44,518 nt of DNA from Lachnospiraceae bacterium (GTDB lineage: Bacteria > Bacillota > Clostridia > Lachnospirales > Lachnospiraceae), in assembly GCA_024698145.1 (NCBI GenBank), contig JAILRO010000011.1, forward strand, positions 1 through 44,518. Reading direction: 5' to 3'. Position numbers and translations under genes: made by a program. How positions within the stretch are numbered: the stretch's first letter is position 1; every line of letters starts with the position of its first letter. Below the pieces are notes generated by a model, which saw only the letters and a program-made list of their open reading frames with translations, was not told the DNA's origin and searched no databases. Positions 4,001 to 44,518 of this stretch are shown here, one piece after another.

Positions 4001-4379
4001 AATTGCTGTTTAATGCACTTTTATTCCTAAACAAACGCGTATAGATTATCAGATGTATGAATATCCTGTATCCAGGTGAAACGCACTAAGAGGTTGTAGG
4101 TATGCCGACTACACTTTCTTATAATACGCGACCGGCTATGGATTCGACATCCTGTCTCAACATGCCTTGCCTGACATCCGTGTCAGGCATTCGCTTATGT
4201 ACTCACGGCATACCAACAACCTCTAAGTACCTTTCAGATGTCACAGGATATTTCACACACAGATAATCTCACGCTGTTCTTTCATGTAGGAAAGTGCATC
4301 AAATCAGCTGATGCGAGCCGTAGGCGAGTCGCGTGCCGCCCTCTATGTTGTACATGCGAAACTTAACTAAACAGCAATT
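4001..4379. repeat. Structured non-coding repeat element, copy 1 (complete)
   Basis: This 379-bp element lies between convergent fprA and the methyltransferase gene. It begins AATTGCTGTTTA and ends with its exact reverse complement, TAAACAGCAATT (4368-4379). Inside these 12-bp termini the two arms pair imperfectly: 4012-4070 (through GAATATCCTGT at 4060-4070) against about 4243-4300, which starts ACAGGATATT. The right arm carries about 65 extra bases (about 4301-4367), with GCGA and TCGC ends forming a small stem. A second copy begins at 44320. No open frame of note is inside. It resembles a MITE-like palindromic element or a structured RNA and could also end transcription of both neighbours. 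The methyltransferase stop codon lies within its right terminus. No clear target-site duplication is seen. Confidence 0.8.
4089..4224. repeat. Core of repeat copy 1 bounded by 19-bp inverted repeats
   Basis: AGAGGTTGTAGGTATGCCG at 4089-4107 is answered by CGGCATACCAACAACCTCT at 4206-4224 (18 of 19 complementary). The 98 bp between them are not palindromic overall but contain a strong hairpin, TGCCTGACA (4168-4176) with TGTCAGGCA (4181-4189) and a 4-base loop. Relative to the left arm this core runs in the opposite direction from the core of the copy at 44320. Confidence 0.85.
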
Positions 4380-5586
4380 ACCCTCGCACAAGTTCCATAA
4401 GCGTCTGCTTTATATTAAATTGTGCACACAATCGTTCCGCTTCCTCCCACGCTTTTTCACGACGTTCTTTAGAGGAATTGTCATGACGCACTGCTCGTAT
4501 AAGTATATTCTTTGGCGAATGCGCTATATCAATAAACTCAAGAAGTTGCGTATGATATCCGCAGTACTCAAGCACATTTGCTCTTATAGCATCTGTCATA
4601 AGTGCACTTACACGTTCTTTGATGATTCCGTGTCTTGTAAGGATTGCAAAATCATCACTTGCAATCTGTGCATTTATCTCATGCTGACAACACGGAACCG
4701 AAAGTATAATACCTGCTTTCCATGAGATGGCATTATAAAGTGCATAGTCCGTCGCAGTGTCACAAGCATGTAACGTTACAACCATATCTACCGGCTTATC
4801 TGTTTTGTATCCATTAATATCCCCCAGTTCAAAATAAAGATTATCATAATGATATTTCTTCGCGGTCTCATTGCATTTCTTTATTACATCAGTTTTAAGA
4901 TCAAGTCCTGTTATTGTAGCATTTATTCCTTTAAGTTCAACGAGATAATAATACAGAATAAATGTAAGGTAAGATTTACCGCATCCAAAATCTATTATAT
5001 TGAAGGTATCCTTTACCTTGACATTTTTGACAACATCATCTACCAATTCCAGGAAGCGGTTAATCTGTTTGTACTTGTCGTACATAGAATTAACCACCTT
5101 GCCCTCTTTCGTAAAAATTCCAAGATCAACAAGCGGCGGCACAACCGTTCCTTCCGCAAGAATATAATTCTTCTTTCTGTTGTAATTATTATAGGAAGGT
5201 TTACATCCGTCGTTCACGGTTATAAGATTATCTTTTGACGTATCATTTGACTTTCTAATCAGTCTATCGGATGATAGGAGTTTTCCTTTTTTTGTTACTT
5301 TAAAATCCCACTGACGCTCCTTTCCAAAAACATTAAGTTGGCTAAATGATTCCGGGAACATCAAAAAGACCGCCTCGCACATTCCGGCAACATTTACATT
5401 CTCATGAAAGGCCTGCTTGTCCGTGAAACGTTCTATCTGATAGGACACGCCATCACCTTTCTCATACTTTCGTATCACAGCTTTTTTGTATTCATTGTCC
5501 TTAGATGTAGGATTGCTTATAACAATCTTGTCAGGACACTCATTAAGTATATCTTTTATTTTCTTTTGGTCGTTTGAAGTTAACAT
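4378..5586 (-). CDS. SAM-dependent methyltransferase (Methyltransf_32-like)
   Basis: The protein has 402 residues. An N-terminal half of about 180 residues has no familiar motif. It is followed by a Rossmann methyltransferase domain with motif I IIDFGCGKSYLTF (about 197-209), the acidic motif II in ITGLDLKTD, and the downstream LHACDTATDYAL and SVPCCQHE segments. The His-Ala-Cys-Asp and Cys-Cys-Gln-His signatures fit the Methyltransf_32 group, whose members include tRNA/rRNA methyltransferase candidates; the substrate is unknown. There is no membrane segment. It is 23 bp downstream of the DUF2752 gene. The C-terminus runs into the terminal repeat of the element at 4001-4379, so the last codons may have been set by that insertion. 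Confidence 0.85.
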   Translation of the reverse strand: MLTSNDQKKIKDILNECPDKIVISNPTSKDNEYKKAVIRKYEKGDGVSYQIERFTDKQAFHENVNVAGMCEAVFLMFPESFSQLNVFGKERQWDFKVTKKGKLLSSDRLIRKSNDTSKDNLITVNDGCKPSYNNYNRKKNYILAEGTVVPPLVDLGIFTKEGKVVNSMYDKYKQINRFLELVDDVVKNVKVKDTFNIIDFGCGKSYLTFILYYYLVELKGINATITGLDLKTDVIKKCNETAKKYHYDNLYFELGDINGYKTDKPVDMVVTLHACDTATDYALYNAISWKAGIILSVPCCQHEINAQIASDDFAILTRHGIIKERVSALMTDAIRANVLEYCGYHTQLLEFIDIAHSPKNILIRAVRHDNSSKERREKAWEEAERLCAQFNIKQTLMELVRG

Positions 5587-5609
5587 ATAACACCTTTCTA
5601 ATACATCGA

Positions 5610-6032
5610 TTACGCCAGCATATCAATGCCACAAAAAACAAGTAACAGATTCCGTATAATAAAGAAGGAAACAACAATAGCCACATACAAATATACCGGC
5701 CATAGTTTCCGTGTGTAATAACGCCTGCCGTTATTTTTGATAAGCGTTAGCACAATACCTATTTCATAGTGCAAAATAAGCAATGCACCAAAAACCACAG
5801 CAGGGTTAAACTTTATCGAATCTATGATTCTTCCGGAAAGCAATGCAAAGGTTGCTCTCGTTCCGCCGCACCCCGGACAGTACAAATGCGTTATTGCATG
5901 AAACGTACAGTCAGGGTTAGGTATTATGTCGTACCTTGCAAGAAGCATACCAACAAAAACAATGCCCGCACCAAGCACTCCGGATATATTGACTATAAGG
6001 AAATCTCTAAACAATATCTTTCGGTCTGTCAT
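5610..6032 (-). CDS. DUF2752 family membrane protein
   Basis: This 140-residue membrane protein carries the DUF2752 signature HLYCPGCGGTRATFALLSG, with the Cys-Pro-Gly-Cys-Gly-Gly-Thr-Arg core, followed by FNPAVV. About three hydrophobic segments are visible: N-terminal, middle (AVVFGALLILHYEIGIVLTLI) and C-terminal (VYLYVAIVVSFFIIRNLLLVF). The frame is open to 6140, but the ATG at 6032 has a GGAG site 5 bp upstream, and the longer form would overlap the divergent gene at 6124. The function of DUF2752 is unknown. In other genomes it often accompanies small DUF4190/TM2-type membrane proteins, as here. Confidence 0.88.
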   Translation of the reverse strand: MTDRKILFRDFLIVNISGVLGAGIVFVGMLLARYDIIPNPDCTFHAITHLYCPGCGGTRATFALLSGRIIDSIKFNPAVVFGALLILHYEIGIVLTLIKNNGRRYYTRKLWPVYLYVAIVVSFFIIRNLLLVFCGIDMLA

Positions 6033-6123
6033 AATATCTCCATAAAAAACTTTACACAATAGTGTAATAAATGTTATTATAATGCTACTATAATATAATA
6101 ACTTAGGAGGAGAAACAATACCT

Positions 6124-6690
6124 ATGGATGAAAATAACAATAAAAGTCCTTTAAGCTACGACGCTCCAACATCGGGCGAATACAGCAAACCGGAAGAAAC
6201 AAAAGTTGAAGAAACAAAAGTTGAAGAAACAAAAGTTGAAGAAACTGTAACAGAGGCTGCCAAAGTCGAAGAGCCTACGGCAACTGTCCCTTCAGCTTTT
6301 GAGGCACATGTTTCAAACCCTGTTGATACTTCATCACATCAGGAAGTATTCGGTGGACAGGTAGAAGGAAATGCAACTGCCAATTATGCATCTAACAACT
6401 ATGGTGCTCCTGAAGAGTTTTCAAAAGGTTTCGCAATTGCTTCTCTTGTAATGGGTATACTTAGTCTTCTTTCTTGCTGCTGTACATTTTTATCAATTAT
6501 ATTCGGTATACTCGGTATAATCTTTTCATGTGTACAGAAGAAGGATGCCGAAGGCAACAAGCCGGGAATGGCTATAGTTGGTCTCATCCTTTCTATATTA
6601 GGATTGGTTATCTCGGTAGGAAGTATCATATATGTACTTTGTCTCGGCGGAGCAGCATCATACCAGGATATCTTAAACAGCATGCAGTAA
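6124..6690 (+). CDS. DUF4190 domain membrane protein with acidic repeat N-terminus
   Basis: The protein has 188 residues. Residues 1-95 are a hydrophilic, Glu/Thr/Val-rich, probably disordered tail with tandem EETKV repeats. Residues 100-175 hold two hydrophobic hairpin segments in the DUF4190 pattern, AIASLVMGILSLLSCCCTFLSIIFGILGII, a short polar turn QKKDAEGNKPGMA, then IVGLILSILGLVISVGSIIYVL. The ATG follows AGGAGGAG. It diverges from the DUF2752 gene with only 91 bp between them, rich in TATAAT-like boxes (for example near 6075 and 6091). Function is unknown; such proteins are generally considered envelope or scaffold proteins. A terminator follows at 6707. Confidence 0.85.
   Translation: MDENNNKSPLSYDAPTSGEYSKPEETKVEETKVEETKVEETVTEAAKVEEPTATVPSAFEAHVSNPVDTSSHQEVFGGQVEGNATANYASNNYGAPEEFSKGFAIASLVMGILSLLSCCCTFLSIIFGILGIIFSCVQKKDAEGNKPGMAIVGLILSILGLVISVGSIIYVLCLGGAASYQDILNSMQ
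6193..6245 (+). repeat. 15-bp tandem repeat inside the DUF4190 gene
   Basis: The unit GAAGAAACAAAAGTT begins at 6193, 6208 and 6223, with a partial fourth unit at 6238. It encodes repeated Glu-Glu-Thr-Lys-Val. The repeats are identical at the DNA level, so copy number could change by slippage without a frameshift. Confidence 0.9.
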
Positions 6691-6706
6691 TCAATTAAAA
6701 TAACAA

Positions 6707-6740
6707 TGGCAATCCTTTCTAGGATTGCCATATTTTTTCT
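6707..6740 (+). terminator. Rho-independent terminator between convergent genes
   Basis: TGGCAATCC (6707-6715) pairs with GGATTGCCA (6722-6730) across a 6-base loop and is followed by TATTTTTTCT. It ends the DUF4190 transcript. It overlaps the last codons of the opposing parvulin gene and may also stop that transcript, although the T-run on that side is weaker. Confidence 0.88.
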
Positions 6741-7741
6741 GCAAGTTTTCTGTTTATCTGCTTGTCAAAATCAAAACTCGGGTCATAGTCTTTAACCCAA
6801 GTATCAAACATACCGCTGAAGTATTCTTTCTGCTTTGAACGAACAATGTTTGCTTTATTCTCTTTTGTCAGTTCTTCATCATTAGACTTAAGCATCTTAA
6901 ATATATGATAACCATATTGTGTTTCCACAACCACACTGACCTCGCCGTCAGCAAGTTCAAGAATCTTAGAAGCAACACTCTCGCCATATTCTTCCGTAAT
7001 CTGACTTTTTGACATTGTATAAGATGAAGCATACTGCAGATTGTATTTGTCAACGAGTTTTTCATAAGTAGTGTCCTCATCCTCTGCAAGAGAAGTAAGC
7101 GCTTCATTGGCCTTATCAAGCTGTTTTTGTTTTTCCTCTTCGGAATATTCCTTTATCGAACCATCCTTCTCAACCTTGTAACATTCAAAGACCATGTCAT
7201 AGAATGAAATCATTCTTGCTTCCTCATCAGAAATCTCAAAATCATAATCTTCAAGCACATGCTCATACACCTTGTTTGCAACAAGGTTTTCTTTAATAAC
7301 CGCCTTTACAAGCTGGTTACTGATTCCAGATTCTTTGATATCTTCCTCGGTAAGACCTTTGTAGAACTTGTCTGCTATTTCTTCTATCTCTGAAATCTCA
7401 CTGTCCGTAAGCGAAATGTTAAGCTCTGCGGAATGAGCATTCAACACCTTGACACGATTAATATCCGATACGATATCCTTAATTGTGATATCCTTAACCG
7501 AACTGTTTCCATCATCTGTATTAAGTTCAAGTTCCCAAACACCATTACCGTATACCTTGCAATAATCTTCTTCTATTGTCTTGGCATAAATATAATACTC
7601 CGCATAAGTAATATCATCGCCACCAAAGTTATATACAACCAAATTATTTTCGTCCACCTGTTTCTTGTTACATCCTGTAATAACAGTTGAAAAGGAAAGG
7701 AGTATTGCCATAATAAAACAAGCCAAATATTTTTTCTTCAT
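6719..7741 (-). CDS. Parvulin-type peptidyl-prolyl isomerase lipoprotein (PrsA-like)
   Basis: This 340-residue secreted lipoprotein has a lysine-rich start, a hydrophobic stretch and the lipobox VITGC, with lipidated Cys24. Residues about 30-190 form the SurA/PrsA-like N-terminal helical domain. Residues about 195-305 match the PpiC rotamase fold (IADELADGEVSVV-like segment and QYGYHIFKML). Such proteins help exported proteins fold at the outer face of the membrane. It starts 14 bp downstream of mfd on the same strand, an order common in Clostridia. The ribosome site AAGGAGGTG precedes the ATG. Confidence 0.9.
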   Translation of the reverse strand: MKKKYLACFIMAILLSFSTVITGCNKKQVDENNLVVYNFGGDDITYAEYYIYAKTIEEDYCKVYGNGVWELELNTDDGNSSVKDITIKDIVSDINRVKVLNAHSAELNISLTDSEISEIEEIADKFYKGLTEEDIKESGISNQLVKAVIKENLVANKVYEHVLEDYDFEISDEEARMISFYDMVFECYKVEKDGSIKEYSEEEKQKQLDKANEALTSLAEDEDTTYEKLVDKYNLQYASSYTMSKSQITEEYGESVASKILELADGEVSVVVETQYGYHIFKMLKSNDEELTKENKANIVRSKQKEYFSGMFDTWVKDYDPSFDFDKQINRKLAEKIWQS

Positions 7742-7755
7742 ATATATGCACCTCC

Positions 7756-10700
7756 TTATTTATTATTAACCATTTTTGAAATAGAGTCAACAATCTCATT
7801 TAATGTTCCTACAAAGCTCTTAATACTCTTCTTCTCAACATCAATTTGAAATCCGGATTTTTCTCCCGAAACAACTTTGATATGATTCTTATATTTCTCA
7901 AGAAAAGCATTAAGTCCCTCCATATCAATATTGACACCTTCAACCATCTCTATAAGGACTTTGTTCATCTTGTACGAAACAGAAGTTATACAGGTTTCAT
8001 GTGCTTTTGCCTTAATAAGAGAAATGGTAAGAAGATTCTCAACGGGTGACGGCAGCTTTCCGAAACGGTCAATCAATTCTTCTTTCATATCATCGTAATC
8101 TTCATTACTGCATATACCCGATATCCTCTTATAAAGTTCAAGCTTCATCATTTCATTCTTAACATAAGAAGAAGGAATGAACGCATCTATCGGAAGTTCA
8201 ATCGAAGTCTCGAAATCTTCACGTTTCGTCTCGCCTTTCTGCTCAAGTATAGCGTCATTTAACATCTTACAATATAAGTCATAACCTACTGCTTCCATAT
8301 GACCGGACTGATCCATACCAAGAAGATTACCGGCACCTCGGATTTCCAAGTCACGCATTGATATCTTGTATCCCGAACCTAAATCCGTAAACTCTCTTAT
8401 TGCTTTAAGTCGCTTCTCAGCTGTTTCTCTCAAAAGTTTGTCGCGCTTATACATCAAGAAAGCATATGCTGTTCTGTCCGAACGTCCCACACGACCACGC
8501 AACTGATAAAGTTGCGCCAATCCAAAATTATCGGCATCATGGATTATCATCGTATTAACATTGGAAATATCAAGTCCGGTTTCAATAATTGTCGTTGTAA
8601 CCAATACATCTATTTCCTTATTGATAAATGCATACATTACATCTTCAAGTTCACGTTCCTTCATCTGACCGTGAGCATAAGAAACCCTCACGTCCGGCAT
8701 CATTCTCGAAAGTTCTGACGCAATATCGGAAATCGTATTGACACGGTTATACACATAGTACACCTGACCGCCTCTGGCTAGTTCTCTCTTAATGGCCTCT
8801 TTAACCATCTCCTGATTATACTCTAGAACATAAGTCTGTATCGCTTTTCTGTCAACCGGTGGTTCCTCTAAAAGACTCATATCACGTATTCCGATAAGAC
8901 TCATGTGAAGAGTACGCGGAATAGGTGTCGCGGTCAATGTAAGTACATCAACATTCTTCTTCATCTGTTTGATTTTCTCTTTGTGAGAGACACCAAAGCG
9001 TTGTTCCTCATCTATAATAAGGAGTCCCAAATTACGATAATCTATCTCTTTAGAAAGAAGCTTATGGGTACCGATTACTATATCAACCTGTCCCTTTTTC
9101 ATATTCTGGATTATTGTCCGTTGCTCTTTTGCCGAAAGAAATCTAGACATCATCGCTATCTTAATAGGATAATTCTCCATACGTTCACAAAACGTGTTGT
9201 AATGTTGCTGCGCAAGAATTGTCGTAGGAACAAGATATGCCACCTGCTTACCATCCTGCACAGCTTTAAATGCTGCCCTTATTGCAATCTCGGTTTTGCC
9301 GTATCCAACATCACCGCAAATCAAACGATCCATGATTTTATTACTTTCCATATCATGTTTCGTATCTTCTATCGCCTTTAACTGATCTTCCGTCTCTTCA
9401 TACGGGAACATTTCCTCAAACTCCCGCTGCCATACAGTATCATCCGAAAAAGCAAATCCCTCTGTCGCCTGTCTCACAGCATAAAGTTCGACAAGTTCTT
9501 TCGCAACAGTTGAAACTCTTTCTCTGACTCTCGACTTTGTTTTTTCCCATTCAGTTCCTCCAAGCTTATTAAGTCTTGGACGTCTTCCTTCTTTCGAGGA
9601 ATATTTCTGAATCATGTCCAACTGCGATACGAGTATATATAATTTCGAGCCACCGCTGTACTCTATACAAATATAGTCTTTGGTAACCTTATCAACTTCT
9701 ATCTTTTCTATTCCACGATATATTCCAAGCCCATGTCTTTCATGGACAATATAATCCCCGATATTAAGGTCATCGAAACTTTTGATTTTCTCTCCGGAAT
9801 ATAACTGTCTTCTTTTTAACTTAAGTCGCTGCTTACGTTGACCGAATATATCTCCCTCCGTAAGTACGACAAGCTTGATGGACGAAACCGTAAAACCATT
9901 TTTGAGTCTTCCGTCTGTAATCATCATTTCTCCTGCAGACAAAACCCTGTCCTTGTTGTCTGTAAAGAAGCATGTTACTTCCCTGTCATTAAGCTCATCC
10001 GCAAGTCTTTTTCCTCTCGTTGCCGAGGGTGAAAAAAGAATAATTCCATAGCCTTCTTTTTTCCAATTGTGTATATCCTTGATAAGCATATCCACACTGT
10101 GATGATATGCCGGAATAGATCGTGTCTCTATCTCCTTTTTGATTTTGGGTACAAATACATCACAACGTTCTCCGAGAAGACTGAACATTATCATGTCTCT
10201 TTTCATCAACTCGTGTCCGATTTTTTCGTAATCGAAAACAACCTCCGCCTGCCCCGGAAGCATATATCCTCCTTCGAGTCTGTCACGCATGCTCTCGGTA
10301 AATTCCATACGGCACACTTTCCCGCGCGCGCATATCTTTGATGGATCATCAAGAAGTATGATTGTATCCTCCGGCAAATAAGAAAGAAAACTTACAGGCT
10401 CGTCATAGAACATACCAATATATCCATCAATACCCATAGCACTGTTAAAGTTTTCAAGTTCCTCTTTAAGAGCTGCTATTTCTCTATTGATTCTTGCATA
10501 CTCTTCAGTTTTAAATGATTCCTTTAACTTCTTGGCGTACGCCTTGTGCTCTTTGTCAATCTTTTTAAGGCCTTTTTTGATTCTATCGTCATCAAGCACC
10601 ATTTCCGATGCAGGGAATATCTTTAGCAAATCAACCGTCTCTATACTTCTCTGACTTTCAACATCAAAACTTCTTATGCTGTCAATCTCATCACCCCAGA

Positions 10701-11274
10701 ACTCTATACGATAGGGACAATCACTACACATAGGGAAGATATCCAAGATACCTCCCCTTATAGAAAACTGACCAACTCCATCAACCTCATAGTTTCTCTC
10801 ATATCCTTCTGATATAAGACGTTCTTTCAACTCTTCAAGGCTTACTTCATCACCCTTATTCAATTGCATTACGTATTTTTCAATTTCAGAAACAGGTACA
10901 ACCTTATTAAGCAACGCATCTATTGATAAAACTATTGTTGTTGCGGTTTTATCAATCAATGCACGAATGACCTCCATTCGTTGCATAAGAATTGTGTGTC
11001 CGTGAATATCCGCACTGTAAAACAATACGTCCTTCGATGGATAATATAGTATGTTTCTGTCAAAGAATCGATAAGCCTCACTTATTTCTTTCGCCTTATC
11101 CTCACTGTAGGTTACAATCAACTTAAGTTGCTGTCCTGCCAAACAGTCCATGACATAGTATCTTCCATAACCATCCGTACCTGATATTTCAATAGGAAGA
11201 TTGTGATTCTTTTTTGCTTTGGTGTATATATCACCGATCGTTGAGTTTTGAAACGGTGCTACCAAACTGTTCAT
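7756..11274 (-). CDS. mfd: Transcription-repair coupling factor Mfd
   Basis: This 1172-residue DNA translocase removes stalled RNA polymerase and recruits UvrA. In order it has an N-terminal UvrB-like module (to about 300), the RNA-polymerase-interacting CarD-like domain (about 500-570, FDDLNIGDYIVHERHGLGIY), a helicase core with Walker A GDVGYGKTE (about 654-662) and DEEQ box (about 755-758), LTATPIPRT, the second RecA lobe with QLRGRVGRSDR, and a C-terminal TRCF domain. Length is normal. A GTG at 11289 is in frame, but the ATG at 11274 has GGGGAG six bases upstream and is preferred. It begins 11 bp after the yhaM stop in a long operon. Confidence 0.97.
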   Translation of the reverse strand: MNSLVAPFQNSTIGDIYTKAKKNHNLPIEISGTDGYGRYYVMDCLAGQQLKLIVTYSEDKAKEISEAYRFFDRNILYYPSKDVLFYSADIHGHTILMQRMEVIRALIDKTATTIVLSIDALLNKVVPVSEIEKYVMQLNKGDEVSLEELKERLISEGYERNYEVDGVGQFSIRGGILDIFPMCSDCPYRIEFWGDEIDSIRSFDVESQRSIETVDLLKIFPASEMVLDDDRIKKGLKKIDKEHKAYAKKLKESFKTEEYARINREIAALKEELENFNSAMGIDGYIGMFYDEPVSFLSYLPEDTIILLDDPSKICARGKVCRMEFTESMRDRLEGGYMLPGQAEVVFDYEKIGHELMKRDMIMFSLLGERCDVFVPKIKKEIETRSIPAYHHSVDMLIKDIHNWKKEGYGIILFSPSATRGKRLADELNDREVTCFFTDNKDRVLSAGEMMITDGRLKNGFTVSSIKLVVLTEGDIFGQRKQRLKLKRRQLYSGEKIKSFDDLNIGDYIVHERHGLGIYRGIEKIEVDKVTKDYICIEYSGGSKLYILVSQLDMIQKYSSKEGRRPRLNKLGGTEWEKTKSRVRERVSTVAKELVELYAVRQATEGFAFSDDTVWQREFEEMFPYEETEDQLKAIEDTKHDMESNKIMDRLICGDVGYGKTEIAIRAAFKAVQDGKQVAYLVPTTILAQQHYNTFCERMENYPIKIAMMSRFLSAKEQRTIIQNMKKGQVDIVIGTHKLLSKEIDYRNLGLLIIDEEQRFGVSHKEKIKQMKKNVDVLTLTATPIPRTLHMSLIGIRDMSLLEEPPVDRKAIQTYVLEYNQEMVKEAIKRELARGGQVYYVYNRVNTISDIASELSRMMPDVRVSYAHGQMKERELEDVMYAFINKEIDVLVTTTIIETGLDISNVNTMIIHDADNFGLAQLYQLRGRVGRSDRTAYAFLMYKRDKLLRETAEKRLKAIREFTDLGSGYKISMRDLEIRGAGNLLGMDQSGHMEAVGYDLYCKMLNDAILEQKGETKREDFETSIELPIDAFIPSSYVKNEMMKLELYKRISGICSNEDYDDMKEELIDRFGKLPSPVENLLTISLIKAKAHETCITSVSYKMNKVLIEMVEGVNIDMEGLNAFLEKYKNHIKVVSGEKSGFQIDVEKKSIKSFVGTLNEIVDSISKMVNNK

Positions 11275-11285
11275 ATATACTCCCC

Positions 11286-12233
11286 TCACATTCCGGAAGT
11301 TCCTCTGATATTGGAATCAAACATTTTGTTATATCCAATCCATTCTCCCGGCTTATTACCATTATTATTGAGAAGTTCCGCAAAGCCTTCTAATTTGGCA
11401 TCCGTATTATCAGCAAACGCCAATGCGACAGCTTCAACTAATGCCGGTTTCTTCGGTGAACCATATTCTAACTCACCATGATGAGCTAATATACAATGTT
11501 TAAGTTCATTTGCTGTAACTTCCGGAAATCCTTCTATATTTCTGATTCTCTCTTCAATTATAATTACACCTTTTACAATGTGACCAATAAGCTGACCTTC
11601 ATCGGTATAGTCATTCTCCGGAAACTGCGATATCTCATCAATCTTGCCAATATCATGACACAAGGCTGCAGTAATCAATAAATCTCTTTTTAATATCGGA
11701 TAATTAGTTGTGTAGTAGTCGCACATCTTTGCAACCGAAAGACTGTGTTCCAACAAACCACCCACAAAATTGTGGTGCATTGTCTTTGCCGCAGAATGCA
11801 TACGAAAACGTTTTGCAAAATCCTTATCCTCAACAAACAAAGAATTGAGCAACTTGTTCAAATGCACATCCTTAACAGAGTCGATAAGGCCAACCATTTC
11901 CTTATACATTTCATCTATATTCTTGGTTGTATACGGCATGTAATCCGCAGGATCATATTCACCTTCAGAAGCTTTTCTTACTCTTCTGACATTTAACTGC
12001 AAAGCGCCCTGATAACTTATAACTTGAGCATCCACCTGGATATAATCCATAGAATCAAAGTGTTCAATTCCATTATTGATATCCCATATTTTAGCATCTA
12101 CCGATCCCGTTTTATCATTTAACGACATAGAATAGTAAGTCTTTCCTGCCTTAGTCTGAAGATTTCTCTTATTCTTGCACAAGTAAATTGAAGATATATT
12201 ATCTCCCTCTCTGATGTCCGCAATGAAACGCAT
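11286..12233 (-). CDS. yhaM: 3'-5' exoribonuclease YhaM-type (OB-fold plus HD domain)
   Basis: This 315-residue cytoplasmic nuclease has an N-terminal OB-fold (about 12-95, including TYYSMSLNDKTGSVDAKIWD) and a metal-binding HD domain (about 150-280) with HHNFVGGLLEHSLSV, ALCHDIGKI, LIGHIVKG and ILAHHGELEYGSP. This is the YhaM/CBF1 arrangement, and the length matches B. subtilis YhaM. Known members trim RNA 3' ends and also cut single-stranded DNA. It lies between the histidine kinase (20-bp gap) and mfd (11-bp gap) and is probably cotranscribed with both. Confidence 0.92.
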   Translation of the reverse strand: MRFIADIREGDNISSIYLCKNKRNLQTKAGKTYYSMSLNDKTGSVDAKIWDINNGIEHFDSMDYIQVDAQVISYQGALQLNVRRVRKASEGEYDPADYMPYTTKNIDEMYKEMVGLIDSVKDVHLNKLLNSLFVEDKDFAKRFRMHSAAKTMHHNFVGGLLEHSLSVAKMCDYYTTNYPILKRDLLITAALCHDIGKIDEISQFPENDYTDEGQLIGHIVKGVIIIEERIRNIEGFPEVTANELKHCILAHHGELEYGSPKKPALVEAVALAFADNTDAKLEGFAELLNNNGNKPGEWIGYNKMFDSNIRGTSGM

Positions 12234-12253
12234 ATATATACTCCTTCCATTAA

Positions 12254-14402: not shown

Positions 14403-16805
14403 CTATAACTCTACTATTGTTACTCCTGCATCACCTTCGCCAAATTCTCCCAGACGGTATGATTTGACGTAGGACTGTTTCTTCAGATAATTGTGAATAC
14501 CATTTCTTAACGCACCGGTTCCCTTTCCGTGAACAACCCTGACTTTGTCAAGATGTGCCAAGCACGCGTCATCTAAATATTTATCAAGTTCCATTATGGC
14601 ATCATCAACAGTAAGTCCCAAAAGATTAATCTCCGGTTTGATGTTTCTCGACTTTCCTGTCGAACCACCATATGTATTAACTCTGTATTTCTTATTATCA
14701 TTCTTCTTGTTGGACGTAGTCTCTTTGACAATCTCAACATCACTAATCTTAACCGTACTTTGCAAAATACCCATCTGCACGGTAAGTTCTCCCTTATGAT
14801 TAGGAAGCGAGCGTACAATACCATCTGCATTCATGCTAATAACATGCACAGAATCTCCGAGATGAAAATCCGAAGCCTTGGCATTTGATTTCCTATTAGG
14901 TTTCTTGTCCTCAAGAGAGCCACGCACGGAATTAAGTTTTTTCCTTATTGCGTCTCTTTCCTGCTCCATCTCCTTGTTGGAAGCCTTGCCCGACTTATCC
15001 CAATTATTATACTTCCTTATGGACTCATCTGCAAATGTTTTCGCCTCTTGAATTATTTCCTCGGCCTGCATTCTGGCATTTCTTAAAACATCCTGTTTTC
15101 TCTGTTCTATATGCTCATTCTTCGATGCAAGACGACTCTTTAATTGTTCAATCTCTGCCTTATATGCAGTAATCTCTTCCTGCTCATTTATTATCGTCTG
15201 CTTTGCCTTATGAATATCAGCAAGCAGAGTCTCCATATCAACTGTAGAAGAATCAATCTGATTCCTTGCCGCATCAATTACACTATCATCCATCCCAAGC
15301 TTCTTGGCAATTGCAAACGCATTCGACTTTCCCGGAATTCCAATAAGTAAATGATACGTTGGTGACAATGTTTCCACATCAAACTCACAGCTGGCATTCT
15401 CAATACCTTCCGTTGTCATTGCAAAAGTTTTAAGTTCGCTGTAATGTGTCGTTGCCATACATCTGACATCTCTGTTATGAAGACTATTAAGTATTGAAAT
15501 TGCAAGTGCAGATCCTTCCACAGGGTCAGTTCCACCTCCAAGTTCATCAAAGAGCACAAGCGTATTGCTTGTTGCATGCTTCATAATATAAACAATATTT
15601 GTCATATGAGATGAAAATGTGCTTAAACTTTGTTCTATACTCTGCTCATCACCGATATCTGCAAATACATCATCAAATACCGAAAGCACCGAGCCCTGGA
15701 ATGCAGGTATGTGTAGTCCTGACTGTCCCATAAGTGTAAACAGACCAAGTGTCTTTAACGACACCGTCTTACCACCGGTGTTCGGTCCGGTAATAATAAG
15801 CATTGTAAAGTCATCTCCTAGCCTTATATCAACTGGAACAACTTTATCCTTTTCAAGTAATGGATGTCTTCCCTTCTTGATTTCTATTTTCCTGTCATCA
15901 TTAAACTCCGGCATAGTTCCGTCGTAAGACTTTGCATAAGAAGCTTTTGCGAAAATGAAATCCAACTTTGTCAAAAGTTCAAAATCTGAAATCAGAGTGT
16001 CTCTGCATAGAGCAACCTGCTCACTGAGTGCAGCAAGAATTCTCTCTATTTCTATTGCTTCATTTATCTCAAGTTCTTTTAACTCATTATTAAGATTAAC
16101 TACTGCCATAGGTTCTATGAAAAATGTAGAACCACTTCCCGACTGGTCGTGAACCATTCCCGGAAAATGACCTTTGTACTCCGACTTAACCGGAATACAA
16201 TAACGACCGTTTCTCATTGTTACTATGGCATCCTGAAGCATTGTTTGGTTATCCTGTGTAGCAACAATCTTACTTAAAATATCATGTACCTTGCCGTTAA
16301 CCTGCTTCATTTCTCTTCTTATTGACTTAAGACTTGGCGATGCATCATCAGCTATCTCGTCTTCCGAAATAATACATCTGTTAATCTCTTTTGCAAGGTG
16401 TTCAAGAGGAATAAGGCTGTCAAAATATCCGGTAAGGGAATCATTTCTTGTTACGACACCCTCCTCGTCTTTGTTCTGCGCCTTTTCACCATACTGTTTG
16501 GCATGCTCACAGACTTTAAGCAGTTTGGCAACATCCAAAAGCTCTCTGACGGAAAGTTGCGCACCAACCTCCGCTCTTTTCATAGCTTCATTTATCGGAT
16601 AGACACCGGAAAAAGACACACCTCCCTGCTGATATACTCTGGCAAGTGCATCTGCTGTTTCCTCCTGTTGCTTCGTTATCTCTATTATGTCGGTGGACGG
16701 CTTTAGCTTTTCACACATTCTCTTGCCCGACGGCGTAGTTGCAAACGAAGTCAACTGTTCTATTATTTTGTAATACTCAAGTACCCTTAGGGTTCTTTTA
16801 TTCAT
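14403..16805 (-). CDS. mutS2: MutS2 ATPase/endonuclease
   Basis: This 800-residue MutS2 has the core and clamp regions at about 1-300, an ATPase domain with Walker A GPNTGGKT (340-347) and Walker B LVLFDELGGGTDP (417-429), a long coiled coil (about 510-640), and a C-terminal Smr nuclease domain (about 726-800) with HGKGTGALR. MutS2 acts on branched DNA to limit recombination and, in B. subtilis, also rescues collided ribosomes; it lacks the mismatch-reading domain of MutS. Its ATG overlaps the aminotransferase stop in ATGA, indicating translational coupling. Length is normal. Confidence 0.97.
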   Translation of the reverse strand: MNKRTLRVLEYYKIIEQLTSFATTPSGKRMCEKLKPSTDIIEITKQQEETADALARVYQQGGVSFSGVYPINEAMKRAEVGAQLSVRELLDVAKLLKVCEHAKQYGEKAQNKDEEGVVTRNDSLTGYFDSLIPLEHLAKEINRCIISEDEIADDASPSLKSIRREMKQVNGKVHDILSKIVATQDNQTMLQDAIVTMRNGRYCIPVKSEYKGHFPGMVHDQSGSGSTFFIEPMAVVNLNNELKELEINEAIEIERILAALSEQVALCRDTLISDFELLTKLDFIFAKASYAKSYDGTMPEFNDDRKIEIKKGRHPLLEKDKVVPVDIRLGDDFTMLIITGPNTGGKTVSLKTLGLFTLMGQSGLHIPAFQGSVLSVFDDVFADIGDEQSIEQSLSTFSSHMTNIVYIMKHATSNTLVLFDELGGGTDPVEGSALAISILNSLHNRDVRCMATTHYSELKTFAMTTEGIENASCEFDVETLSPTYHLLIGIPGKSNAFAIAKKLGMDDSVIDAARNQIDSSTVDMETLLADIHKAKQTIINEQEEITAYKAEIEQLKSRLASKNEHIEQRKQDVLRNARMQAEEIIQEAKTFADESIRKYNNWDKSGKASNKEMEQERDAIRKKLNSVRGSLEDKKPNRKSNAKASDFHLGDSVHVISMNADGIVRSLPNHKGELTVQMGILQSTVKISDVEIVKETTSNKKNDNKKYRVNTYGGSTGKSRNIKPEINLLGLTVDDAIMELDKYLDDACLAHLDKVRVVHGKGTGALRNGIHNYLKKQSYVKSYRLGEFGEGDAGVTIVEL

Positions 16806-36140: not shown

Positions 36141-36177
36141 ATCCTTTGTAAAAGTTAGTAATCTATGGTTTTACCAA

Positions 36178-36753: not shown

Positions 36754-36789
36754 ATTTGTTTCCTCCTTATATGATTCATTTTATATTTT

Positions 36790-36806
36790 ATCATATTATA
36801 TATGAT
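36790..36806. promoter_or_regulatory. Candidate operator upstream of the flavodoxin gene
   Basis: ATCATAT and ATATGAT form a perfect 7-bp inverted repeat with a 3-bp centre, 37-53 bp before the flavodoxin start, in the likely promoter (TTGCAT on the minus strand nearby). Next to it is TTATATTTTATCA (36781-36793), which also occurs in the glutathione peroxidase promoter (40395-40407). Confidence 0.5.
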
Positions 36807-36859
36807 GCAATGTATTTACTTAACAAAACTTTTTTACCGATTATATTTTAGAACTTACA

Positions 36860-38418: not shown

Positions 38419-38456
38419 ATTAATCCCCCCTATTGTATAAAACTCATCACATCATA

Positions 38457-39302: not shown

Positions 39303-39329
39303 AATGCAATCGCTCCTGTTATTCAGACC

Positions 39330-39761
39330 TTAATTTTCAAGAAACTTATATAATAAATGATAAAGTTGCTTTGACTCTTCCTCCGACAAAGAGGTGCTGC
39401 TTTGTGCAAGTTTAAGCGGAATATCTTTGCATTTTTCTTTAAGATCCATTCCCTTTTCTGTAATGCTTACTATAGTTATACGCTCATCTTCTTTGGAACG
39501 TTCTCTTGTAACGTATCCTTCTTTTTCAAGCTTCTTAAGAAGTGGTGTAAGTGTACCTGCATCAAGATGAAGGATACTTCCAAGTTGTCCAACATTAACA
39601 CTTTCCTGCTCCCATAACACCATAAACACAACATACTGTGTATAAGTTAAACCAAGTGGTTTTAGGTACGGAGTATAACTGCTCACTATCTTACGCGAAC
39701 ACGCATATAACGGAAAACACAATTGATTCTTCAATAAAAGCTGTTCATATTTCTTTGCCAA
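39330..39761 (-). CDS. MarR-family regulator, OhrR-like
   Basis: This 143-residue redox regulator has a winged helix at about 30-110. The N-terminal NQLCFPLYACSRK places a cysteine at position 15, the sensor position of B. subtilis OhrR, if TTG 39761 is the start; that TTG has GAGGG about seven bases upstream, while ATG 39782 has no ribosome site. OhrR regulators release DNA when the cysteine is oxidised by organic peroxide. It lies between glutathione peroxidase (54 bp upstream) and DUF3737 (27 bp downstream), fitting a peroxide-response operon. A second cysteine (21) may allow disulfide switching. Confidence 0.88.
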   Translation of the reverse strand: MAKKYEQLLLKNQLCFPLYACSRKIVSSYTPYLKPLGLTYTQYVVFMVLWEQESVNVGQLGSILHLDAGTLTPLLKKLEKEGYVTRERSKEDERITIVSITEKGMDLKEKCKDIPLKLAQSSTSLSEEESKQLYHLLYKFLEN

Positions 39762-39815
39762 AACGTCACCCTCTGTCCTCATTTTTAATTACATATTATC
39801 ACACTCACGTAAAAA

Positions 39816-40358
39816 TCACAAAAGCTCTTCCACGCATTTATCAACCTCTGACATCTTTGCAGTAGGCTCAAATCTTGCTACGACGTTACCTTTTCTATCT
39901 ACAACAAATTTTGTGAAGTTCCATTTGATATCAGGATTGTTTTTGTAATTCTTGTCGATTTTTGAAAGCATCGCACCCATTGCAAGTGCCTTAGGTCCCT
40001 TGCCAAATCCTTCAAACCCCTTCTGCTCTTTTAAGTATGTAAAAAGAGGAAGCGCATTATCACCGTTAACATCAGATTTCTTCATCTGAGGAAATTGAGT
40101 ATTATACTTGAGTGTGCAAAACTCGTGTATCTCGTCATCATCTCCCGGGGTCTGGCCTGCGAACTGATTGCACGGTACATCAATAACCTCAAAACCCTTG
40201 TCATGATATTTCTCATACATAGCTTCTATGTCCTTATAGTGAGGTGTAAAGCCACAACCTGTTGCTGTATTCACAACCAATACAACCTTGCCCTCATAAT
40301 CCTTCATTGAAACCTCTTCACCATTAGGTGTGCTTACGCTGTAATCATAAAATCCCAT
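39816..40358 (-). CDS. Glutathione peroxidase family protein (thiol peroxidase)
   Basis: This 180-residue enzyme has NTATGCGFTPHY, with peroxidatic Cys35 in place of selenocysteine, PCNQFAGQTPG, HEFCTLKYNTQFPQM, whose Cys is the usual resolving residue in thioredoxin-dependent members, and DIKWNFTKFVV with the conserved Trp and Asn. Bacterial members of this type reduce peroxides with thioredoxin rather than glutathione. A near-consensus promoter with an internal palindrome lies at 40394-40422, and an OhrR-like regulator gene follows, so peroxide induction is likely. AAGGAGG precedes the ATG. Confidence 0.95.
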   Translation of the reverse strand: MGFYDYSVSTPNGEEVSMKDYEGKVVLVVNTATGCGFTPHYKDIEAMYEKYHDKGFEVIDVPCNQFAGQTPGDDDEIHEFCTLKYNTQFPQMKKSDVNGDNALPLFTYLKEQKGFEGFGKGPKALAMGAMLSKIDKNYKNNPDIKWNFTKFVVDRKGNVVARFEPTAKMSEVDKCVEELL

Positions 40359-40393
40359 ATTAATTTCCTCCTTTTAATTTTATATTTGACTAT

Positions 40394-40422
40394 ATTATAT
40401 TTTATCAGATATAATTTGTCAA
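40394..40422 (-). promoter_or_regulatory. Consensus promoter with embedded palindrome for the peroxidase operon
   Basis: On the minus strand a perfect TTGACA (40422-40417), 17-bp spacer and perfect TATAAT (40399-40394) lie about 35 bp before the peroxidase start. ATTATAT (40394-40400) and ATATAAT (40409-40415) form a perfect inverted repeat covering the -10 and spacer, where a repressor would block polymerase. The OhrR-like protein encoded downstream is the obvious candidate. Confidence 0.85.
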
Positions 40423-40483
40423 CAACTTTTTTTCATAAAAAGCATTACCATATTCTAATATAACAATACTCACTCGAATTACG

Positions 40484-40522
40484 TAAAAAAACGCACCTTA
40501 TACATTCATGCATAAAGTGCGT
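40484..40522 (-). terminator. Terminator of the NarL-type two-component operon
   Basis: On the minus strand ACGCACTTTATGCATG pairs with the complementary run ending AAGGTGCGT (40522-40491, with one or two weak pairs), followed by TTTTTTT (40490-40484). It starts 12 bp after the response regulator stop. Confidence 0.9.
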
Positions 40523-40533
40523 CTCTTTCATTT

Positions 40534-41178
40534 CTACATATCTAGTCCATGCTTAACCGCATATACCGCAAGTTGAGTACGGTCCTTCAACGAAAGTTTA
40601 TCAAGAAGTTTCGACACTTGATTCCTCACCGTGCCCTCCGCAAGAAAAAGTTCTGCAGCAATTTCCTTGTTGTCATAGCCCTCTGCAACAAGTCTTAATA
40701 CATCTCGTTCCCTTTCAGTAAATGAATATTCCGAAGTAACATCATCCTCTTTATTTTCATCCTTGCTCACTCTTCCGAGAATTGACTTATACACGCCATC
40801 TCCGAATACGCTTATTCCACCATACACACTCTTAACGGAAGTAATGACCTTCTCATCTTCCATTTCCTTTAGAATGTATCCGTCAGCACCACTTAATACC
40901 GCTTTGTGAACAGTCTCGTCATCATCAAAGGTTGTAAGAACAAGCACCTTAACCTCTGGAAGTTCTTCCTTAATTGCTTGTATTCCAAAGGCTCCGTCGT
41001 AGTCAGGCATTCTCATATCCATAAGTACCACATCCGGTTTATATACTTTTGATTTTTCAAATGCTTCCTTACCATTTTCAGCAAGTGCAACTACCTCAAT
41101 CTCTCCATCTTGTTCAAGAACTGCTTTCAATCCCTGACGTAATATCATAATATCGTCTGCTATCAAAACCTTAATCAT
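40534..41178 (-). CDS. NarL/FixJ-family response regulator
   Basis: The 214-residue regulator has a receiver at about 1-120 with acidic Asp8/Asp9, phospho-acceptor Asp54 (VVLMDMRMPDYDG) and Lys in YILKEM. The C-terminal LuxR helix-turn-helix is at about 150-210 (FTERERDVLRLVAEGYDNKE, GTVRNQVSKLLDKL). It is the partner of the kinase 73 bp upstream. A terminator ends the operon. Confidence 0.96.
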   Translation of the reverse strand: MIKVLIADDIMILRQGLKAVLEQDGEIEVVALAENGKEAFEKSKVYKPDVVLMDMRMPDYDGAFGIQAIKEELPEVKVLVLTTFDDDETVHKAVLSGADGYILKEMEDEKVITSVKSVYGGISVFGDGVYKSILGRVSKDENKEDDVTSEYSFTERERDVLRLVAEGYDNKEIAAELFLAEGTVRNQVSKLLDKLSLKDRTQLAVYAVKHGLDM

Positions 41179-41251
41179 ATCGTTACTCCCTTATTTATGG
41201 CATCTTGCTACTTACACTCAATGCTACTCGTATATACTCCTTAATTATTGT

Positions 41252-42559
41252 TTACACCTTAAGATGTATTCTTGTAAGAAACCCTTCATCTTTTCCGCTT
41301 ATAAAACGAACCGTTCCGCCTGCATCACTGACACGTTTTCTAATTCCCGCAAGTCCGTTATTATCCTTAATATTTTCACATCCACAACCATCGTCGCTTA
41401 TCGTTAGATCTATCGCATCAGTTTTGAAACGGACAACAATATCCATCTTGGTTGCATTGGCATATTTTAAGGTATTGGTTATGGATTCTCTCGTACTGTC
41501 ATATAAGACTTTCGATAAATGAGAGTATCGCTTGCCATCTTCGCCCTGAACTGTCACTTCTACAGGGATCTCCTTTACCTGTCCTGCTAATTGCATAATA
41601 CCCTGTGTCACAAGTTCATAGGTTGCCTCCTGCTTCATTTCATTGATTGCCTCACGAAGCTCTTTTATTCCCTGACTTGTAAGCGTTCGCGCTTCCTCAA
41701 GATAAGTTCCTGTCTCCTTGTTGTCTCCCTTGTCGTTGGAAAACTGCGCAAGTTTCATATAAGACTGTATCATCGTAAGTGTATGGCCTGCCGTATCATG
41801 TACCTGCTGTGCAATACGATTCCTCTCCTTCTCAAGAAGAAGTTTCTCATTGGTTATCGCAAGTTCCTTCTCAAAGTCCATAAAATGATACTTCATCGTT
41901 GCAAACATAACAAGTATTACCGATATTCCAAAGCCAAGCGGCGTTATGTCAAAGGCTGCATTTACAAGCCCCGACAAATATACGGCATTGAGAAATAGTG
42001 GTATAAGCACCGATGCAATTATAAGAAGTTGTCCTCTTGTCACATTCTTATTCTCGTCAGTTGACTTCTCCTTATCGACAGATGCACCCTCAACATTTAA
42101 AAACAATATAACCGCGCCATTAATAACAAAAAGATACGTCGTGGCAACGTTGGTGTAAAAGAATATTCCATGTTCGACATGGTTTAGATCAAAGATTCTG
42201 TAATACATATGATGAAGTGGATTGCTGATCACCATTAGATAATGAAATACAGCCGCGCATAACGGCAGAAAATGAAACATAGAACGCTTCTTCCCGGTAT
42301 ATTCACACGCAAAATAAAACCACGCCGCACCAATCATACATATACCGAAATTACCGATTGCATATGATACCACGACCTCATTAATCGACGAAGCAATAAG
42401 CACAAAAATCTGGGACGCACACCAGACTGCAACAGTAGCCTGAAATCCCAGATACATTTTCTTATATCGTTTATCGGGGCCCAACAGGTACAGTGCCGCC
42501 ATACTGACGAGCACTGCACCTGTAACCACCATATAAAATACTCCTAATAAATATTCCAT
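41252..42559 (-). CDS. Sensor histidine kinase, 7TM N-terminus and HisKA_3
   Basis: This 435-residue kinase has an N-terminal half (about 1-225) with seven to eight membrane helices like the 7TM histidine-kinase region, a short cytoplasmic coiled coil, a HisKA_3 dimerisation domain with IAQQVHDTAGHTLTMI (His254), and an ATPase domain with N-box DSTRESITNTLKYANA and DDGCGCENI. This arrangement belongs to the NarL-linked family. The signal is unknown. TATAAT on the minus strand (42608-42603) is a plausible -10 with a weak -35. The gene for the large membrane protein lies just upstream, 60 bp away. Confidence 0.94.
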   Translation of the reverse strand: MEYLLGVFYMVVTGAVLVSMAALYLLGPDKRYKKMYLGFQATVAVWCASQIFVLIASSINEVVVSYAIGNFGICMIGAAWFYFACEYTGKKRSMFHFLPLCAAVFHYLMVISNPLHHMYYRIFDLNHVEHGIFFYTNVATTYLFVINGAVILFLNVEGASVDKEKSTDENKNVTRGQLLIIASVLIPLFLNAVYLSGLVNAAFDITPLGFGISVILVMFATMKYHFMDFEKELAITNEKLLLEKERNRIAQQVHDTAGHTLTMIQSYMKLAQFSNDKGDNKETGTYLEEARTLTSQGIKELREAINEMKQEATYELVTQGIMQLAGQVKEIPVEVTVQGEDGKRYSHLSKVLYDSTRESITNTLKYANATKMDIVVRFKTDAIDLTISDDGCGCENIKDNNGLAGIRKRVSDAGGTVRFISGKDEGFLTRIHLKV

Positions 42560-42619
42560 ATTATTTCTCCGTTTAGGTTTTTAGGATTTTATAAGTGTAT
42601 TTATTATAACACACTTTTT

Positions 42620-44152
42620 CTATTTTGCCTCCTTCTCTTTTTTAATTGCGATACCTACAAGTACTACACCTGCTGCGAAGAGATATACCCACCATGCAAT
42701 TGAAAGCCAGAACTCTCTTGTAAGGTAGAGTGCAAGAAGTGAAAGTGTTACCGATGATGCTATAACATATTCCTTATGGTTCATCATTGCTGCTACGATA
42801 AGCATTACAATTCCTACGATTCCAAGGAACATGAGGCAGGAAAGTTCCTGAACATGAATGTTATGGAAAAGAAGTGTTGCAAGTGTTAAGCAAGTAAGTA
42901 CGAACTGTGCTGTTCTTACACTTTTAATCTTTTCATACCAGATCATTCCGAGTGCATATATTCCTACTCCAACAAACATGCTCATCACTTCTGCATTAAA
43001 ATCATCAAAATCAATTGTTACTACAAGGAATAAAGCTGCAAGTTCAACCAATGCGAGTGTAATTGTTCTGATAATACATTTTGCAGTATTGTTAGAAACT
43101 ACACAATCAACTATCTCTGAAACAAATGCAAGCATGATAAGTACAACCATTACTGCAAACGGAATCATATCCCAGCCAAGTCCATCAAACCATTCTGTCT
43201 TTGCCACTACATATAATACAAGTTCATAACCGGCCATAATACCGTGAAGTACTGAAAGTTTCTTGTATTCCTCATCTTTTCCTCTGTACCACATTGCAAA
43301 GAATGCTACTGCAGTTGCAAGGGCAAATGGAATTATATCGTATGAGTGAAACTCTGTAGTATCCCATGATGATAATCCATCACAAATCTGTGCCAATGTC
43401 AAAAACCAATTTGCTACAATTGCTATACATATAAGCTCTTTGCGTTCAAGTATTACCATCAATACAAGATCAACTAAAAGGCCTGCAAAGAACAACCATT
43501 TTTCAAATGCAACTGTGTTTTCCAATTCTTCCTCAATCATCTGATAAAGCTCAATATTGAGAAAATGATTAATAGCTACGATACCTATACTCTGTGCGAT
43601 TCTATAAAATGTATGTCCTGACTCCATATACTGATATGTTGCTAAAAGAACAAGTCCTGTAAGTGGAATGATTCCTGCAATATCTGCAACATTTGCTGCA
43701 AAAACAAGGAAAAACATGTTAACGAAGATGAATGCAAGTATTCCAAAATCCCAAGGTTTTCTTTCCTTAAAGAATCTGTAAGATACTGCCATAGCTGTTG
43801 CAAACAATCCCCACATTGCCTTATCTGCATTGTTAAAAGTATCAAGCATGTAGTTATTAAGATAACCGTTTATTGTTGTCCAACCACCCAAAAAAGATAC
43901 TGTAAGGAATCCTGAACCTGCTGCTGCCAAGTAATATAACGCATGTTCAGTCTTTGCAAGAATTCCCTGCTCTCTAAGTCTCCATGAAACTACATAAAGA
44001 CCTGCAACTATTCCTGCTAACACAAGTCTTTTTACAAACTCCGGTAAATGCTGCCATGCCGTTGTCACAAAAATGCTTCCTGCAATCATTATGAATATGG
44101 CACCTACAATAAGTAACACTGTTGAAATCTGATTCTTATTCTTTCCTTCCAT
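42620..44152 (-). CDS. Large polytopic membrane protein, DUF2157-like
   Basis: This 510-residue protein has about 14-16 hydrophobic helices, starting LLIVGAIFIMIAGSIFV after a short polar N-terminus, a pattern like DUF2157/large conserved membrane proteins of Clostridia. No catalytic motif is recognised. Related proteins can have an added zinc-ribbon N-terminus, absent here. The frame opens at GTG 44161, but ATG 44152 has AGAGGTG six bases upstream. A candidate promoter overlaps three TGACATC repeats at 44243-44285, and the structured repeat copy 2 begins 168 bp upstream. The two-component pair downstream may act on it; this is only context. Confidence 0.8.
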   Translation of the reverse strand: MEGKNKNQISTVLLIVGAIFIMIAGSIFVTTAWQHLPEFVKRLVLAGIVAGLYVVSWRLREQGILAKTEHALYYLAAAGSGFLTVSFLGGWTTINGYLNNYMLDTFNNADKAMWGLFATAMAVSYRFFKERKPWDFGILAFIFVNMFFLVFAANVADIAGIIPLTGLVLLATYQYMESGHTFYRIAQSIGIVAINHFLNIELYQMIEEELENTVAFEKWLFFAGLLVDLVLMVILERKELICIAIVANWFLTLAQICDGLSSWDTTEFHSYDIIPFALATAVAFFAMWYRGKDEEYKKLSVLHGIMAGYELVLYVVAKTEWFDGLGWDMIPFAVMVVLIMLAFVSEIVDCVVSNNTAKCIIRTITLALVELAALFLVVTIDFDDFNAEVMSMFVGVGIYALGMIWYEKIKSVRTAQFVLTCLTLATLLFHNIHVQELSCLMFLGIVGIVMLIVAAMMNHKEYVIASSVTLSLLALYLTREFWLSIAWWVYLFAAGVVLVGIAIKKEKEAK

Positions 44153-44242
44153 AATCAACACCTCTTTCTTATACTCTACAGATTGATATTTTCCATTTGC
44201 CTATCGGCTTTGTTTTCTTTTATTCTCATCTGCTATACTTGG

Positions 44243-44272
44243 AGTATATCAGAGGTTTCTTTATGATGTCAG
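44243..44272 (-). promoter_or_regulatory. Candidate promoter of the polytopic membrane protein gene
   Basis: On the minus strand CTGACA (44272-44267), an 18-bp spacer and TATACT (44248-44243) lie about 91 bp upstream of the start. The -35 lies inside the heptad repeats at 44265-44285. Confidence 0.55.
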
Positions 44273-44285
44273 ATGTCAGATGTCA
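44265..44285. repeat. Three tandem GATGTCA heptads overlapping the -35 region
   Basis: GATGTCA occurs three times head to tail at 44265, 44272 and 44279. Such phased short repeats at a -35 box are typical of binding sites for response regulators. A matching palindrome, GTGACA-TT-TGTCAC, lies at 44306-44319, and TGACATC words also occur inside the repeat element. Confidence 0.7.
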
Positions 44286-44319
44286 CAACCGTATTCCTCA
44301 CCGCAGTGACATTTGTCAC

Positions 44320-44518
44320 AATTGCTGTTTAATGCACTTTTATTCCTAACAAACGCGTATAGATTATCAGATGTATGAATATCCTGTGACATCTGAAAGG
44401 TACTTAGAGGTTGTTGGTATGCCGTGAGTACATAAGCGAATGCCTGACATGGATGTCAGGCAAGGCATGCTGAGACAGGATGTCGAATCCATAGCCGGTC
44501 GCGTATTATAAGAAAGTG
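44320..44518. repeat. Structured non-coding repeat element, copy 2 (cut by window edge)
   Basis: From AATTGCTGTTTA at 44320 to about 44387 the sequence matches the left arm of copy 1 (4001-4070) with a single-base gap. From about 44388 to 44518 it matches the reverse complement of 4110-4243 of copy 1 with two changes. The hairpin TGCCTGACA (44441-44449)/TGTCAGGCA (44454-44462) is kept while its loop differs. The right arm and terminus lie outside the window. The element is upstream of the polytopic membrane gene. Confidence 0.85.

Follow-up and report, generated by a model that had tools for sequence, protein, structure and literature searches.

The excerpted text of PMC2864571 lists TwoAYGGAY as a structured RNA of unknown function, and that of PMC4333381 proposes it as a CsrA-binding small RNA; in the excerpted texts on TwoAYGGAY, we found no account that places it in a mobile repeat of paired hairpins. 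Spacer inversion accompanied by homogenization of the arms is the published signature of intermolecular template switching in the excerpted portions of PMC8604942 and PMC8794818, with spacer inversions in the excerpts of the former found only with arms longer than 9 bp. We analyzed a 44,518-nucleotide stretch of a Lachnospiraceae bacterium (GCA_024698145.1, contig JAILRO010000011.1; here called the window), which is the entire contig C66 of a 71-contig, 2.89-Mb draft genome (G000), together with the genome of a sister species (G201). The window contains two copies of a dispersed repeat element, copy 1 (4001-4379) and copy 2 (44320-44518), the latter incomplete because the window is the whole of C66. 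The core of hairpin 1 of this element is the Rfam motif TwoAYGGAY (RF01731). The core of copy 2 is inverted relative to its left arm, and template switching in hairpin 1 of copy 2 or of its ancestor probably produced the reversed core, a reading to which we assign a probability of roughly two in three. The features of the two copies, in window coordinates with strand, are as follows.

4001-4379, + strand: copy 1, a two-hairpin repeat element whose second hairpin is mostly deleted
4003-4012, + strand: left terminal inverted repeat of copy 1, TTGCTGTTTA, an L-type end, followed by ATGCACTTTT
4060-4069, + strand: AATATCCTGT, the putative left switch point, with its inverted partner at 4243-4252
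4075-4238, - strand: TwoAYGGAY (RF01731) of copy 1, 84.4 bits, in standard orientation, pointing outward toward the L end
4089-4107, + strand: left side of the 19-bp stem repeat, AGAGGTTGTAGGTATGCCG
4206-4224, - strand: right side of the 19-bp stem repeat, CGGCATACCAACAACCTCT, the first 9 bases of which are the putative second switch point
4243-4379, + strand: right arm of copy 1, shorter than that of full copies by an internal deletion of about 190 bp
4368-4377, - strand: right terminal inverted repeat of copy 1, reading TAAACAGCAA on the + strand, an R-type end
44320-44518, + strand: copy 2, the left part of an element, ended by the contig end
44322-44331, + strand: terminal inverted repeat of copy 2, TTGCTGTTTA, an L-type end; the orthologous G201 junction has an R-type end
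44378-44424, + strand: 47-bp stem arm of copy 2, of right-side type, with a perfect inverted partner from position 133 of contig C1
44392-44518, + strand: TwoAYGGAY of copy 2, reversed (inward), its 3' end cut, 50.4 bits

An earlier note on this DNA had described the two copies as sharing a left arm and as having opposite cores, and both observations were borne out: positions 4001-4069 and 44320-44387 are a single inserted base apart, and the core of copy 2 matches the other strand of copy 1 over 132 bases at 98.5% identity, with two differences. One correction concerns copy 1, which is an incomplete element without the roughly 190 bp of right arm present in the copies on contigs C12 and C49. 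The note had also pointed to the sequence just right of the window, where a divergent right arm would indicate a true inversion of the core. The first 128 bases of contig C1 are identical to the last 128 bases of the window, after which C1 proceeds through the divergent right arm to a complete right end. The window end and C1 (locus L190, 1-498) are probably one copy, and this probable continuation enters no second left arm.

The joined sequence revealed that the flip was not clean, since the inverted loop of 98 bp bears right-side stem sequence on both sides. The stem formed by C66 and C1 is a perfect 47-bp inverted repeat (47/47 pairs), compared with 31-33 of 47 in seven standard copies (six from G000 and one from G201, being those that fit the loop/stem search pattern). 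Compared with the seven standard loops, the C1 loop shows 93-99% identity when they are reverse-complemented and 38-40% when they are taken as is. C1 alone holds the reversed loop together with 34 bases of the 47 on the left side, which already have the right-side sequence, and the connection to the left arm is in C66. At the two novel junctions, identity with the templates is limited to AATATCCTGT (10 bp) and CGGCATACC (9 bp). The left junction is unique to C66: among 23 matches to ATATCCTGTNACATC in G000, the readable ones follow a right-type arm except the one at C66:44379 (a T variant at C10:55119 was excluded). The reciprocal junction expected of a simple flip was not seen in the assembly, where 21 of 21 matches to CTGGATACAGGATATT continue as left arms.

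Reversed cores were rare in both genomes. Read inward from the element ends, core direction was standard in 47 of 48 cases in G000 and in all 33 in G201, the exception being copy 2 (1 of 81 reversed); this count is without 15 G000 and 29 G201 ends lacking a readable motif and without the C1 core, whose own end lies off the contig. Two other G000 reads that appeared reversed (L001 and L032) were dropped because the motif read there is part of the other hairpin in a copy with a deletion. A mechanical outward/inward rule gave 42 outward and 2 inward among 44 motif matches with an end within 420 bp, with 2 more matches lacking an end. Under this rule, the inward case on C37 is a contig-end effect, and C1:2-165, which is the flipped core, was scored outward solely for lack of its own L end on the contig.

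We infer template switching rather than gene conversion as the event behind these features. In copy 2 or an ancestor, replication would have switched templates inside hairpin 1, with the growing strand departing the left arm at AATATCCTGT, in the outer repeat, reading back along the complementary strand across the right-side stem and loop, and switching back at CGGCATACC, inside the 19-bp repeat. Switching at both points would invert the loop and make the left stem exactly complementary to the right one. An origin within a palindrome, one of two possibilities raised in the earlier note, fits best. The core-deleted copies on C71, C58, and C17 may likewise be replication errors across the hairpin. 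Several considerations weigh against this reading. A single event was observed, and the link between C66 and C1 is a 128-bp overlap within a repeat, with no continuous contig; if these were separate copies, there would be two reversed cores. The use of gene order as proof of C66-C1 adjacency failed: it gives no support to the join, as scpA follows spoIVA in three outgroups, and in G201 the flanks of C66 and C1 appear to abut different elements. Furthermore, the inverted spacer of 98 bp is far longer than the 2-5 bp changes in the yeast cases described in the excerpts of the cited papers. Short middle contigs carrying the reciprocal junction could be missing from the draft, and a stretch of 100 bp of the copy-2 loop that is exactly common to C58 and C69 leaves room for an ectopic donor.

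That shared stretch also favors the strongest competing explanation, in which homologous recombination or gene conversion between oppositely directed copies inserted the reversed core along with both right-type stems. Many copies are present in the genome, and flanks have been exchanged among elements between the two species. Against this, identity at the junctions amounts to only 10 and 9 bp, and no further reversed core was found among the readable cores. Identity of 9-10 bp is very short for RecA-dependent exchange. We therefore consider recombination or conversion unlikely. An active invertible cassette, the other possibility raised in the earlier note, would have a site-specific recombinase invert the core between the ACAGGATATT ends or between the 19-bp repeats. 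The core is indeed flanked by inverted repeats and one flipped copy exists, but reversed cores number 1 in 81, and the two complete elements examined contain no open reading frame (ORF) above 85 amino acids. Neither predicted structure is in the assembly. A flip between the ACAGGATATT ends alone predicts a left-side stem beside the right arm, and every occurrence of CTGGATACAGGATATT runs into a left arm; a flip between the 19-bp repeats alone would keep left-side stem sequence on the left, an arrangement found in neither C66 nor C1. The stem was also symmetrized, unlike the outcome of conservative inversion, and the copying of one stem arm onto the other disfavors simple inversion by a recombinase. 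A simple flip at either repeat pair was accordingly rejected, and a recombinase cassette is improbable. An assembly or library chimera within the palindromic repeat is the least credible origin. In its favor, both junction contigs terminate in the repeat and many draft contigs end in copies; against it, the two novel junctions, on two contigs, are consistent with a single event and the overlaps that would mislead an assembler are just 9-10 bp.

We identified 21 matches to RF01731 in G000, of which 18 (copy 1 and 17 other hairpins) scored above the gathering cut-off of 43 bits of the covariance model and three, including copy 2, fell just below it. The motif of copy 2 scored 40.1 bits in this whole-genome search, below the cut-off, versus 50.4 bits in the search of the window. 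Under stricter filters, RF01731 was detected in 35 of 200 Lachnospiraceae genomes drawn, and none was found in 14 named control genomes. Across 90 matches in five Lachnospiraceae genomes, all 16 neighboring pairs within 1.5 kb face outward. Beyond these five genomes, G037:C123, L108, and L113 are also outward among the matches listed. A tandem arrangement occurs at L109 (G166:C36), where motifs at 1501-1665 and 1805-1969 point the same way with 140 bp between them; this is the sole close pair among the matches listed that is not outward. These results put an orphan RNA family into a physical setting: TwoAYGGAY forms an arm of a two-hairpin mobile repeat in these genomes.

With copy 1 as the query, we found at least 50 matches in G000 (40 of 72 first-look candidates were scored). 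Full copies at C12:14337-14903 and C49:26073-26640 measure 567-568 bp between the ends TTGCTGTTTA and TAAACAGCAA. Counting ends at no more than one mismatch to the end pattern yielded 64 in G000 and 62 in G201, and a reversed control pattern yielded 0. After 3 weaker ends were added by hand to these 126 for element pairing, the two genomes together contained 26 complete elements of 375-829 bp. All but three of the 77 unpaired ends are outermost on their contig and point off it, and for those that could be checked the contig end is no more than about 550 bp away. When folded, a full copy forms two long hairpins linked by a short GC-rich one, with a folding z score of -11.2 as DNA and -12.4 as RNA and with 0 of 100 shuffles folding as well. 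The hairpins are modular, with a core that is TwoAYGGAY type A, a diverged TwoAYGGAY (type B), or a third type (C), or that is shortened or deleted. Two weak matches of a full element to microRNA families in Rfam, which score far below the cut-offs, were treated as chance matches of a long hairpin. We found no longer, autonomous element with the same ends in the G000 and G201 drafts, both of which break at element copies. These findings describe a mobile element, dispersed and apparently non-autonomous, in which a short hairpin connects two long ones. Like miniature inverted-repeat transposable elements, it is short and without a transposase gene, has terminal inverted repeats, and occurs in many dispersed copies and at filled and empty sites. 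Phage and plasmid collections searched with copy 1 gave no match. Among viral contigs, the end pattern matched 18 and the core pattern matched 2; these 20 pattern matches were rejected as chance because BLAST gave no element homology in any of them.

Comparison of the element flanks (65 ends from G000 and 62 from G201, the latter being 65 minus three internal look-alikes) separated orthologous junctions clearly, with 47 pairs scoring 125-300, the next best scoring 61, and shuffled controls scoring no more than 31. At these 47 junctions, the end type was the same in G000 and G201 in 19 (8 L and 11 R) and opposite in 28, a proportion that does not depart from one half (binomial p 0.24). A check of end types found 3 near-ambiguous cases in the 127 ends. 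An extra pair found by BLAST (L239/L182), outside the count of 47, also has opposite ends. At 31 of the 47 junctions, the adjoining 40 bases align ungapped with at least 28 identities, and 20 of these 31 are switched. The locus of copy 2 is itself a switched site: at an identical base, its left flank meets an L-type end in G000 and an R-type end in G201. Sites are thus conserved between the sister species, with contents and direction reshuffled. The suggestion in the earlier note of an invertible family, which is not supported for the core, gained unexpected support at the level of whole elements, within the limit that both ends were switched in just 4 of the 11 G201 elements with both ends matched (counted by hand). 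The G201 elements were distributed as follows.

Both ends switched (4): C15:30798, C9:164391, C23:160489, C24:36874
Neither end switched (3): C18, C6, C7:40224
One end switched (4): C16, C17:93647, C7:98729, C7:205851

The elements at C17:93647, C7:98729, and C7:205851 each have two R ends in G201. Given this mixture of outcomes, both inversion in place and the exchange of ends from one element to another are needed or possible. Ordinary recombination inside an element leaves a flank with its end, so the switch would have to take place in the outermost 10 bp. Such a change could result from a recombinase or transposase working at the ends, or from template switching there. It is possible, if doubtful, that a trans-acting recombinase or transposase recognizes the TTGCTGTTTA ends and repeatedly inverts, exchanges, and turns over elements at fixed sites, with the TwoAYGGAY RNA as an outward-facing arm. 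If so, the sites would be inherited, but their contents and orientation would be reshuffled and the gene neighborhoods rearranged, and TwoAYGGAY, unexplained since 2010, would be placed in a system.

Mobility and REARRANGEMENT were examined at the C49 site and at five element-free places in G201. At the C49 site, the G000 element (C49) and a G201 element (C18) lie between the same two genes and have different cores, and L136, L138, L139, and L147 contain both genes with the intergenic stretch shown free of end sequence. Sixteen of the 18 G000 flanks without a G201 partner could be located in G201, and ten of the 16 form five adjacent pairs, each combining an L and an R flank, that are element-free between. 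In three of the five pairs, the G000 flanks are contig ends and could be the two sides of one element. The other two pairs, one of which includes the left flank of copy 1, come from different G000 elements, indicating that rearrangement is involved. No target-site duplication was evident at the five G201 places, where the bases adjoining the junctions have diverged. The surroundings of copy 1, which lies between two convergent ORFs, are rearranged: in G201, 27 bp separate the left flank of copy 1 from a flank belonging to another G000 element, and the right flank of copy 1 is next to a different element.

2820-3998, + strand: ORF on the left side of copy 1
4378-5586, - strand: ORF on the right side of copy 1

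In the three outgroups, spoIVA lies beside scpA with no element between them, and in G000 these two flanks abut different elements. The gene names rest on profile matches, of which those to a spore_IV_A fragment (283 bits) and to ScpA (227 bits) fall below the curated cut-offs and that to ScpB (145 bits) lies above. Upstream of scpA in G206 (L221, reverse strand), a diverged element end, TAACTAAACAGAAA, occupies the same place in a third species. We also noted two G000 flanks facing each other about 600 bp apart at G201:C17:253659-254389, with no detected end between them, possibly a diverged element, and, in another genome from the genus (L133), a different palindromic repeat in the intergenic stretch upstream of the orthologous gene.

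By a mechanical ORF rule and without a background estimate, 24 of 65 ends in G000 and 19 of 62 in G201 lie 0-2 bp after a stop codon, so that in many cases the element appears to occupy the entire gap between genes. L280 (G201:C17:56738-56794), one of the five element-free places in G201, has an ordinary terminator-like hairpin with a T run between convergent genes. The two G000 flanks matching L280 are without the hairpin and run from the stop codon directly into element ends, which suggests that the element may serve as a terminator. Elsewhere in the window, 7756-11289 and 14403-16805 contain housekeeping genes whose Pfam domains are like those of transcription-repair coupling factor and MutS2, respectively.

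These results provide a natural bacterial case resembling template switching with a 98-bp spacer inversion. They also describe a repeat family with inherited sites and end types close to randomized between sister species, making in-place exchange a directly testable question. Described systems share parts of this picture. As presented in the excerpted text of PMC3116915, REPINs, or REP pairs mobilized by RAYT, likewise consist of two inverted palindromic units that are extragenic and form hairpins; the element here is several times larger. The Y1 (HUH) transposase of the IS200/REPIN type (PF01797), the only recombinase family searched for, gave 0 matches in G000 and G201. PF01797 was present in 6 of 17 motif-bearing genomes versus 8 of 13 others (12 without the motif, and G222, unchecked for it). 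REPIN/RAYT membership was rejected on both grounds, the absence of PF01797 from G000 and G201 and its failure to track the motif. According to the excerpted text of PMC3049150, BOX elements of Streptococcus pneumoniae are, like the element here, dispersed, non-coding, and modular, with structured ends and interchangeable middle modules. Their layout differs; in our element, the modules are long hairpins and the end type varies between species at the same site, and the word "inversion" does not occur in the main text of that paper. Template-switch (quasipalindrome) mutations, as described in the excerpts of PMC8604942 and PMC8794818, share with copy 2 an inverted spacer, homogenized arms, and two switch points of short inverted identity, and copy 2 differs from them in that its spacer, at 98 bp, is far longer and lies within a mobile repeat.

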